A DNA stretch of 64,000 nucleotides, taken from Synechococcus sp. NOUM97013 (GTDB taxonomy: Bacteria; Cyanobacteriota; Cyanobacteriia; PCC-6307; Cyanobiaceae). Of the stretch, positions 9,985-63,550 are shown piece by piece. The translations under genes and the position numbers were made by a program. Below the pieces are notes generated by a model that saw only the letters and a program-made list of their open reading frames with translations, had not been told where the DNA came from and searched no databases. The number at the start of each line of letters is the position of its first letter. Position 1 is the stretch's first letter. The stretch covers positions 434,001 to 498,000 of the forward strand of contig NZ_CP047941.1 in the NCBI RefSeq assembly GCF_014279815.1, read 5' to 3'.

Positions 9985-10848
9985 TCAGGAGTCGCGTCCG
10001 CCACGGCTCCGCTTGGACGTCTTGCGACGCTTCCGGAGGACGAACTTGTTGCTCGGCTTGTTGCGCTTGCGGGTCTTCAGACCCAAGGCAGGTTTGCCCC
10101 AGGGGGTCACCGGGCCTGAGCGGCCGATCGGTGCACGACCCTCACCACCACCGTGGGGGTGATCGCAGGGGTTCATCACGCTGCCTCGAACCTGAGGACG
10201 GCGGCCGAGCCAACGACGTCGACCCGCTTTGCCCAGGCTGGTGTTGCGGATCTCTGAGTTGCCGACTTCGCCGAGCGTGGCGTAGCACTCACGACGAACG
10301 AGGCGTACCTCGGTGGAGGGCAGCTTGAGAGCGACGTAATCACCCTCTTTGGCCATCACCTGGGCGCTGGCACCTGCAGTTCGGACCATTTGGCCACCGC
10401 GTCCGGCATAAAGCTCGACGCAATGGACGCTGGAACCGAGGGGCACGGCCGAAAGAGGCATGGCATTGCCAACTTCGATCGGTGCCTCAGGACCAGACAT
10501 AACGGTCTGACCAATCGCTACTCCTGCGGGAGCGAGGATGTAGCGCTTCTCGCCATCGGCATAGAAGAGCAGGGCCAGACGCGCATTGCGATGCGGGTCG
10601 TAATGGATGGCTGCCACCTTGGCGGGCACGCCGTGCTTGTTACGCCGGAAGTCGACGAGGCGGTATTGCCGCTTGTGACCGCCACCGCGATGGCGGCAGG
10701 TGATCACGCCGCGGTTGTTACGTCCTTTGCGGCGGTGCTTGGCCACCACAAGGGATCGTTCCGGCTTGCGGCCGGTGACTTCACTGAAGTCGGTGACCAC
10801 CCGGGTGCGGGTTCCGGGGGTATAGGGGCGGAAGGTACGGATTGCCAT
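9985..10848 (-). CDS. rplB: 50S ribosomal protein L2 (uL2)
   Basis: 23S rRNA-binding protein close to the peptidyl-transferase centre, 287 aa. Conserved parts are [20 protein letters not shown] near the N-terminus and [19 protein letters not shown] near the C-terminus, the L2 signature with its functional His. It is located between rplW and rpsS. Confidence 0.98.
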
Positions 10849-61390: not shown

Positions 61391-61825
61391 GTGACCACCT
61401 TCGTTCTTTCCCACAATCTGCAGGTGAACGATTCGGCTGTTCCTGCCTTGGTTTTTGATGCTTTGGCTGCTGGTTTGCAACAGCATTGCCCTTCTGTCAC
61501 CGCGGCTGAAGCGCTCAGTCACCCACATTGGAAAGTGAAACTTGAGTCGACGGCTTCTCCTGAGGCTCTGGCGCGTGAGCTCGTCCAGGGCTGGCGTCGG
61601 GTGCGTATGGACCTGAGTCACGGCCAGGCTCATGCCGTCATGGCTCTCGGAGGTCGCAAAGATTCGGAAGGGAACCCTGGAGCGCCCCTGCAACAGGGTG
61701 GTTGGGGCGTTGATGTGGTGGAAACAGTGGACCCGAAGGGTTTTCTGGCTGCGATCAACTGGACCGGCCTAACGGCCGGTCGCCCTGCGGATGGGGTCTT
61801 TGAAGTGGTTGACCCCGCGGCCTGA
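61391..61825 (+). CDS. DUF2656-like protein of the phycobilisome region
   Basis: 144 aa. The start reads MTTFVLSHNLQVNDSAVPAL; further conserved-looking parts are HPHWKVKLE, VMALGGRKD and GGWGVDVVETVDPKGFLAAI. This pattern resembles the cyanobacterial DUF2656 family, often found among phycobilisome genes; the assignment is from memory. No HEAT repeats, cysteines suitable for bilin, or membrane segment. It lies between two bilin-lyase genes, so a role in phycobiliprotein maturation or regulation is an inference. Confidence 0.7.
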   Translation: MTTFVLSHNLQVNDSAVPALVFDALAAGLQQHCPSVTAAEALSHPHWKVKLESTASPEALARELVQGWRRVRMDLSHGQAHAVMALGGRKDSEGNPGAPLQQGGWGVDVVETVDPKGFLAAINWTGLTAGRPADGVFEVVDPAA

Positions 61826-61827
61826 GT

Positions 61828-62115
61828 TCAACCGCGGCGGCGTTTGGAATTCCGGCGCCCTGCTTTCTTGGACGTCGACGCTGCTGTGGCGGTCTTGGGA
61901 GCCACTGACTTGACGACGGGGTCTGGGCTTGGTGCCTGATCCTGATGTGCAACGTCGGATCCCACTCCGTGAATGCTCAATCCACGGCTGTGCATCGATT
62001 GAACACTGCGGCTCAGATGTTGAAAGGGAATTTTCAGGCTCCGTGCGGTCCATGGGCGGGAGCCCGGCACGATGCCTGCATGCACGGTGATGGACTGTTC
62101 AAGCGTTGGGCCCAT
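61828..62115 (-). CDS. Small CpcD-like domain protein with basic C-terminal tail
   Basis: 95 aa. Residues 8-52 resemble the CpcD fold of rod-capping linkers: the segment ARSLKIPFQHLSRSVQSMHS followed by RGLSIHGV fits the CpcD pattern P-[YF]-x2-[LM]-x4-Q-x-[IM]-x3-G-x2-I. From residue 70 on it becomes Ala/Lys/Arg-rich and ends in KKAGRRNSKRRRG. Rod-capping or assembly function is inferred. It ends three bases from the convergent DUF2656-like gene. There is no clear Shine-Dalgarno, so it needs confirmation. Confidence 0.55.
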   Translation of the reverse strand: MGPTLEQSITVHAGIVPGSRPWTARSLKIPFQHLSRSVQSMHSRGLSIHGVGSDVAHQDQAPSPDPVVKSVAPKTATAASTSKKAGRRNSKRRRG

Positions 62116-62257
62116 GGCTATTGCGCAATCGATTCCTTGGAAGATTGACGCAGAACCCCTGTTGCGCCAAATCTTCTCAATCTTCCGTATCAGCAGGTGA
62201 TTTCGCTTCGCCAGGGCAGGAGCTCCTGCAGAATTAACACCATCAAAGACCGCTCAG

Positions 62258-63550
62258 ATGGCCGGAGCACTCGACAATATTCATCCTGGTCTGTCGCAAC
62301 AGGAAGCCATCCGCTTGTTGATGGCTCCTTTGGAGACTCTGGAGTCGCAAAGCGACCCCTATATGGCAGCCGCACATCTCATCAATTTTCCTGGTGAAGC
62401 AACAGAACAAGCGCTGCTTCGGTTAGTCGCTGATGCCGAACAAGCGCAACCTCGCCGTTTGGCGCGTCGCAAAGCTGTTGAAGTTTTGGCGCGGCTGGGT
62501 TGCCGTGATGCCATCCCTGCGATCGGACGTTGTTTGCAAAGTGATGACCCCTATCTGGTTGAAAATGCTGCCTTCGCGCTCAAGGAGTTGCGCTGCCAAG
62601 ACGCGGAGATCCATGCAACATTGGTCTTCTTAGTGGATCAACCGTCTCAGAATCAGCGGGTGTTGATTCAGAGCCTGGCCGCTCTTGGAGTGGATCAAGC
62701 CCTCCCATCCATTCAGAAACTTCAGGAGGCTGATTCGCCAGGTGTGCGTGGTGCGGCCATCAGTGCCATGGCTCAACTGGGCGGTAGCCGGGAGTCATTG
62801 CAACAACTGGAGGACTCCATGGTGTTGCCGAACCAGATGGATCGGCAATCTGCCATCCAGGATGCCATTGATGCAGATGCAGTGGAATTGCTTCCGCAGA
62901 TTCTGCAAGCCCCGGTGTCGCCAGTCTTTCGGATGCGAGCCGTTAAGGCGCTCTGGCCTCAGGATGTTGCTCAACTGGACAATTTGAATTTGCTATCTGT
63001 TCTTGATGCACTTGCACATGATCATCCTGAGTCTCTCCAGTTGGTGCATGCTTACGATCAAGCTCCGACCGACGAATTCTTGATCCAGGAGTTTTTCGGC
63101 ACTGATTTCAGTCGTTGTTATTTAGCTTTGCAGACACTCCGGGATCGATCTGCCGAGGATCTTTGGCCTCTTCTGCATCGGCGTTGGAATGAAGAAGCGC
63201 ACAATGATTACGGTGCCCATTACTTTTTCATTCGGCTATTCGCTTCGTTGGCTGATGCCTGGTCTCAAGATGCACGAGCCATCATCCAGAACATCCTTGA
63301 AGACGCGATCAAAACTCCAAGGCCGCAATTTATGAAATCCAAACCTGCTGCAGTGTTGGCATTGTCGCGGCTTGGCCTCATACATTCTGAAGCACACTTC
63401 GAATCTCTACTGGATCCATCGCTCACTCCCTTCTGGGAATGTCGCTATGCAGCCGTGATGGTGGCACCTAAAACGTGTCTGCAGGGTTCGCTCAGCGACC
63501 CATCGTCCTTTGTGGCGGCCCGTGCCAGTGAAGCTGTAAAGGCGTTGTGA
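62258..63550 (+). CDS. mpeY: CpeY/MpeY-family phycoerythrin alpha-subunit bilin lyase
   Basis: 430 aa, E/F-type lyase with HEAT repeats (DPYLVENAAFALKELRCQDA, SPGVRGAAISAMAQLGGSRE) and the C-terminal FWECRYAAVMVAP-type segment seen in CpeY, MpeY and MpeZ. These enzymes attach a bilin to Cys82/83 of alpha-phycoerythrin; MpeQ and MpeZ also isomerise PEB to PUB. Its position beside mpeA points to MpeY (or its allele MpeQ); CpeY is the main alternative, since no other CpeY candidate is seen near cpeZ. Confidence 0.78.
   Translation: MAGALDNIHPGLSQQEAIRLLMAPLETLESQSDPYMAAAHLINFPGEATEQALLRLVADAEQAQPRRLARRKAVEVLARLGCRDAIPAIGRCLQSDDPYLVENAAFALKELRCQDAEIHATLVFLVDQPSQNQRVLIQSLAALGVDQALPSIQKLQEADSPGVRGAAISAMAQLGGSRESLQQLEDSMVLPNQMDRQSAIQDAIDADAVELLPQILQAPVSPVFRMRAVKALWPQDVAQLDNLNLLSVLDALAHDHPESLQLVHAYDQAPTDEFLIQEFFGTDFSRCYLALQTLRDRSAEDLWPLLHRRWNEEAHNDYGAHYFFIRLFASLADAWSQDARAIIQNILEDAIKTPRPQFMKSKPAAVLALSRLGLIHSEAHFESLLDPSLTPFWECRYAAVMVAPKTCLQGSLSDPSSFVAARASEAVKAL

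Follow-up and report, generated by a model that had tools for sequence, protein, structure and literature searches.

The window analysed here is a stretch of 64,000 nucleotides from Synechococcus sp. NOUM97013. Within it, reading of the open frames gives an ATG-initiated frame on the minus strand at 61828-62115, encoding 95 aa followed by a stop, in the midst of genes associated with phycoerythrin. The features at this locus, in window positions, are as follows.

61391..61825, plus strand: DUF2656 gene (unk12/orf140), the convergent partner (PF10847)
61828..62115, minus strand: unk11 frame, 95 aa, ATG start, conserved MGP N-terminus (frame reading and relatives; name from PMC2246261)
61831..61869, minus strand: terminal arginine/lysine-rich stretch KKAGRRNSKRRRG, residues 83-95 (tail comparisons)
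61831..61947, minus strand: low-complexity linker and tail, residues 57-95, with predicted pLDDT below 50 over residues 57-87 (AlphaFold2 model)
61954..62097, minus strand: predicted CpcD-like domain, residues 7-54, strand-strand-helix-strand (AlphaFold2 model, hhalign, Foldseek, VIA)
62116..62257, no strand assigned: intergenic stretch separating the divergent unk11 and cpeY-like genes, presumed to hold the promoter (gene positions)
62258..63550, plus strand: CpeY-like HEAT-repeat bilin lyase gene (NF058505)

The stop codon of unk11 is 2 nt from that of the plus-strand DUF2656 gene, toward which it is convergently transcribed and which matches PF10847 in Pfam (E 1.2e-42), and its start is 142 nt from the divergent cpeY-like gene, whose NCBIfam match to NF058505 (E 3.7e-98, 329 bits) falls below the cutoff of 600. 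A reading of the letters without database searches (the sequence-only reading) had placed a minus-strand frame between a DUF2656-like gene and a CpeY/MpeY lyase, and the open frames together with these two matches bear this out. The surrounding region also holds, by Pfam, a phycobiliprotein alpha gene, a bilin reductase, a CpeS-like gene and HEAT-repeat lyase-like genes, as well as one frame that we took by eye to be phycoerythrin beta. A scan for sigma-70-like promoters and terminators around unk11 in the window gave no match. The frame is a real gene: same-frame relatives have the MGP start in common, at least 84 of 98 copies of the neighbouring DUF2656 gene are convergently adjoined by a copy of it, and comparison with its two nearest named relatives gives dN/dS values of 0.33 and 0.56, all of which argue for more than a chance frame.

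The gene also carries a name already, having been designated unk11, without a function, by Six et al. in 2007 (PMC2246261), where it is placed beside unk12 (orf140) in the phycoerythrin-I region of strains that contain phycoerythrin (PE) and is described as variable both in length and at its 3' end. Among the strains covered by Table 4 of that work, with the WH8102 row outside the count, unk11 is present in 8 of 8 PE-containing and 0 of 2 blue-green strains, and PE-containing marine Synechococcus are further reported there to be without cpcC and cpcD (PMC2246261). The available portion of that text holds, for unk11, no relation to CpcD, no description of a tail and no function. The claim of the sequence-only reading that it knew of no described protein of this layout is not supported, the gene itself being already on record.

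One genome of our collection (G273), which we take to be that of strain CC9605, an assumption on which the match given below rests, has its Unk11 ATG at 425167 on the minus strand. A study that mapped a Red Sea community to strain CC9605 placed the transcription start of unk11 at 425184 and counted it with the cluster's most active ones, alongside the starts of cpeBA, mpeBA and rpcBA (PMC5069720), and a link between unk11 and CpcD is found neither in the available part of that paper nor in that of PMC2246261. The reported start (425184r) is 17 nt upstream of the ATG. Both the locus beside unk12 and the agreement with the published transcription start thus identify the window gene as unk11; the fold, the family and the candidate role described below are new additions.

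A search of 99 genomes (the window's own included) with the single protein gave matches in 25 genomes at E up to 0.01, two of its 27 rows being the N-terminus of FNR, and at the 25 Unk11 loci the DUF2656 gene, the CpeY-like lyase and a 298-residue HEAT protein were all nearby in 24, the remaining locus (L010) having the first two only. A profile of the Unk11 alignment, searched in 400 genomes of the family, matched at least 144 of them at E up to 0.001, a figure which includes matches to FNR and linkers; the rows listed stop short of weak matches in some PE-lacking genomes (e.g. G018, G121, G129, G165). DUF2656 is present in 98 of the 400, and the count of at least 84 convergently adjoined copies refers to small matches among the profile matches listed, rows in long frames (FNR, linkers) being left out. 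The other 14 comprise two loci with a divergent Unk11 copy (L053, L063), one that ends at a contig end (G372), and 11 in which no Unk11 was found at the locus (10 scanned directly, G179 judged from the profile matches listed), and these last argue that Unk11 is not indispensable. A search for related loci with the Unk11 alignment itself gave no conserved stretch. When named relatives were collected with the DUF2656 neighbour as query (best 80 of 169), loci L073-L117 contained Unk11 in 40 of 45 cases, with none at the DUF2656 locus in L077, L085 (where the sequence ends), L086, L101 and L117, and loci L118-L152 contained it at that place in 0 of 35, some of these sequences ending early (L124, L140). 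A search for the frame at the same locus in marine Synechococcus, proposed by the earlier reading, therefore does recover a conserved protein. With dN/dS of 0.29 and 0.33 for the domain alone, the tail gave about 1.05 against WH7803 and 0.35 against the other close named relative.

Several individual loci merit separate mention. A second Unk11-like gene lies outside the phycoerythrin cluster of G210 (L066:1916-2254), beside frames that we take, by their appearance, to be ruvC and a magnesium-chelatase subunit. At L059 (G381:C2:108700-113100), tail residues resembling those of Unk11 were seen by eye next to DUF2656, in a frame lacking the usual start; the copy may be broken or misassembled. One contig with a Synechococcus-type DUF2656-Unk11 locus (L088) is catalogued under a Crocinitomicaceae MAG and is probably misbinned. 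A viral origin of Unk11 is unsupported, as viral contigs searched by DUF2656 gave 78 pattern matches and 0 relatives, and neither phage records searched with Unk11 nor PHROGs gave a match.

The sequence-only reading had fitted residues 8-52 to the CpcD linker pattern and named a Pfam search as the check. For the window protein alone that check is negative, with 0 matches in Pfam and 0 in NCBIfam, but the family as a whole is CpcD-like. Of 38 members, 15 match PF01383 at E up to 10, the highest score being the 27.1 bits of L078, where the curated cutoff is 27; chains with a CpcD domain occupy the first 8 of 13 rows when the family profile is compared to the PDB (E 0.015-0.59); and hhalign of the Unk11 alignment to 20 CpcD domains from these genomes gave a probability of 94.2 and an E-value of 1.1e-7 over 47 columns. 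By profile comparison, then, both with hhalign and against the PDB, the family is homologous to CpcD domains (PF01383). Seven class-specific HMMs (14, 10, 6, 17, 2, 1 and 1 sequences) with shuffles as controls gave as the best-scoring class the C-terminal CpcD domain of small phycoerythrin linkers, which we label CpeE-like from length and position, with 28 of 39 sequences above the 99% shuffle level, although the unequal class sizes make this only suggestive of origin. The window protein scored 15.3 bits with this phycoerythrin-linker HMM, a value equalled or passed by 1 of 1950 shuffles, while its 0.7 bits with the canonical CpcD HMM are noise (190 of 1950 shuffles as high) and its -1.3 bits with an ApcC HMM, built from a single ApcC sequence, are reached by 1111 of 1950, which gives no similarity to ApcC. 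The equivalog model for the rod-capping linker CpcD, NF058509, matched 1 of 38 members (E 0.0066) and not the window protein; its 80-bit cutoff is strict, given that a canonical picocyanobacterial CpcD (L187) itself scores only 39.9 bits. Since the family does not reach that cutoff, and since the gene lies between DUF2656 and the cpeY-like gene rather than beside cpcC in a phycocyanin operon, we do not file Unk11 as the CpcD equivalog; judged from sequence, it is a CpcD-like family, homologous to the CpcD domain.

The predicted structure is of the same tenor. In the AlphaFold2 model (mean pLDDT 66) strands at residues 8-14 and 24-30, a helix at 31-43 and a strand at 47-54 are followed by a disordered tail, with pLDDT block means of 79-92 over residues 11-50, and this corresponds to the strand-strand-helix-strand arrangement of the CpcD fold. 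In Foldseek, phycobilisome chains fill rows 1-10, at weak E-values of 0.03-0.05 with none below 0.001, and an RNA polymerase-binding protein follows close behind in row 11 (E 0.055). In VIA they likewise fill rows 1-22 (Z 5.1-6.2), a carboxypeptidase reaches the same Z of 5.1 as the weakest of them, and the tool itself warns that Z under 8 may mean a common arrangement. The model thus appears to match phycobilisome linker domains first, albeit with weak E-values.

The tail was described earlier as very basic and arginine/lysine-rich, and a net-positive end recurs in all the named members. The last 18 residues carry a net charge of +8 in the window protein and of +3 to +9 in 40 of 40 named members, whose lengths range from 84 to 143 aa; among 71 other non-overlapping open frames of at least 90 aa in the window, +8 is equalled by one (9985-10848), which we take from its appearance to be ribosomal protein L2. 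RRNRRK, RRGRRK and RRQRRK are common end motifs behind a linker of varying length, and a few members (L080, L091, L095, L100) have weaker ends, e.g. SRTKRT. Computed net charges are +11 for Unk11 and -18 for a phycoerythrin hexamer, values which make an acidic partner for the tail possible but modest. The layout as a whole is less unusual than had been claimed, for canonical CpcD is built in the same way in PE-lacking picocyanobacterial genomes, where its tail is net positive, though more mildly so (+2 to +4), in 8 of 12, as in AAAAKPARRTRRKADD from the same genus, and FNR in these genomes likewise has a K/A/P-rich linker after its CpcD domain. Another CpcD-plus-tail layout exists outside the picocyanobacteria, in Pseudanabaenaceae, where free-standing CpcD proteins with long tails that score above the Pfam cutoff lie after a run of rod linkers (L147:4428-4820, L151:7586-8431).

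Distribution was compared in 32 hand-chosen, near-complete genomes, of which 20 have a relative of the phycoerythrin alpha chain at 91% identity or more and 12 have 42-44% as their best phycobiliprotein match. Unk11 lies beside DUF2656 in all 20 of the PE-containing genomes, in which no other free-standing rod CpcD was detected among small PF01383 frames at E up to 0.1; such frames there are ApcC-like rows, assigned by score band and confirmed by sequence in G000 only, plus Unk11 itself in 5 of 20. In each of the 12 PE-lacking genomes, which were picked for having no DUF2656, cpcC is accompanied by a second small CpcD. Of 20 more genomes from other genera, hand-chosen by DUF2656 and not by phycoerythrin, 18 have Unk11 at the locus, and 6 of these 18 also have a free-standing CpcD, a count that leaves out CpcD-matching frames of 158 and 175 aa (G242, G158) and includes one genome (G204) in which CpcD is apparently frame-broken. 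A strict rule by which Unk11 replaces CpcD is rejected on account of these six. In eight small genomes, which from their size we infer to be Prochlorococcus-like, a CpeY relative and a single linker domain are each found in 7 of 8 and Unk11 in 0 of 8, which argues that Unk11 is tied to rods and not to CpeY-dependent chemistry. Two observations on gene copy number were made in passing: a PE-less genome has five cpcC-type CpcD matches at an exact 2437-base spacing, and six alpha-phycocyanin matches at the same spacing (G028:C1:532990-542884), a tandem amplification of the phycocyanin unit; and in the genome G027 the gene for the phycoerythrin alpha chain occurs twice, at 96% and 95% identity to that of the window, with starts 1.7 kb apart (G027:C1:110674-112830).

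Given these findings, we consider it somewhat probable that Unk11 is an end-cap linker of phycoerythrin rods which plugs the core-distal hexamer. Its CpcD-like domain would fill the central hole of that hexamer, as CpcD does for the last phycocyanin hexamer, so that the rod would end there, and the disordered linker with its arginine-rich end would extend into the net-negative hexamer or across its surface, which would make the binding stronger. Support for such a cap comes from the homology to CpcD domains, the predicted fold, the co-occurrence with phycoerythrin rods and the strong transcription start near the ATG; on this basis Unk11 is probably CpcD-like in its action, its presence in the phycobilisome, its position at the rod end and the role of its tail being inferred. 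Against it stand three rod linkers of the same genome, encoded just past the window, that already end in a CpcD domain, the further genomes with both CpcD and Unk11, the 11 DUF2656 loci at which no Unk11 was found, the weak Foldseek E-values, the noise-level score of the window protein with the canonical CpcD HMM and its lack of Pfam and NCBIfam matches. The cap with a basic extension put forward in the sequence-only reading fits the distribution in all 20 PE-containing and all 12 PE-lacking genomes yet sits uneasily with those three linkers, and overall that interpretation is partly supported.

A different use of the same parts may be envisaged in which the protein is a docking adaptor, its CpcD domain sitting at a rod end and its tail tethering the rods to an acidic partner (membrane lipid, a neighbouring rod, RNA or an enzyme). 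FNR offers a precedent, as its CpcD domain, after which a basic linker follows in these genomes, serves as a dock on rods (PMC10696076), and 10 of 38 Unk11 members score with the FNR model of NCBIfam at E up to 1. The retention of a net-positive end in every named member despite the range of lengths, and a tail charge in the window protein equal to that of an apparent ribosomal protein, also speak for a tether, whereas the similar, weaker tail on canonical CpcD and the relaxed tail dN/dS in the WH7803 comparison do not; we regard docking as possible, if on the unlikely side. That Unk11 both caps phycoerythrin rods and uses its tail as a docking arm tying the rod tip to a second partner seems to us unlikely, and were it true, one small protein would set both rod length and antenna placement. 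The constant place of the gene, with unk12 on one side and the lyase gene on the other, could instead suggest a helper in assembly or chromophorylation that would act on free phycoerythrin subunits together with the CpeY-like lyase or Unk12 and would form no part of the rod. Such a helper is quite improbable in view of the small genomes with CpeY and without Unk11, the resemblance of its domain to structural linkers by Foldseek, VIA and hhalign, and the CC9605-mapped promoter, whose place in the phycobiliprotein-gene class (PMC5069720) better suits a structural protein. Last, the likeness to CpcD might be convergent in a small basic protein of unrelated function, given a window member that matches no curated family and similar strand-helix arrangements among unrelated proteins in the lower VIA rows; with the PDB sequence profile, Pfam, hhalign and the shuffled control in agreement, and the gene in a phycoerythrin region, we hold this to be very improbable.

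PE-containing strains of marine Synechococcus are reported to be without CpcC and CpcD (PMC2246261), and Unk11 provides a single testable candidate for the termination of their phycoerythrin rods. It is a conserved CpcD-like protein encoded beside phycoerythrin genes, one data set gives it a strong promoter, and its host is an abundant phototroph of the ocean.

Among known systems, the rod-capping linker CpcD (NF058509, PF01383) shares with Unk11 the free-standing CpcD domain and, in picocyanobacteria (8 of 12), a short basic end, but its N-terminus is MKVSAG where that of Unk11 is MGP, its gene lies beside cpcC and not in the phycoerythrin region, and the tail of Unk11 is the stronger. The core linker ApcC, which acts as a plug in the holes of the core cylinders (PMC8448738), is also a small free-standing protein of CpcD fold; it belongs to the core and not the rods, and its sequence shows almost no signal in the family, with 1 of 39 Unk11 members above the 99% shuffle level. 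FNR (PetH), which docks on rods via its CpcD domain (PMC10696076), has that domain at its N-terminus followed by a K/A/P-rich linker, an order shared by Unk11, in which no reductase follows. The best-scoring class, the C-terminal CpcD domain of the CpeE-like small phycoerythrin rod linkers, ends a longer protein that has a linker domain, whereas in Unk11 the CpcD-like domain stands alone.
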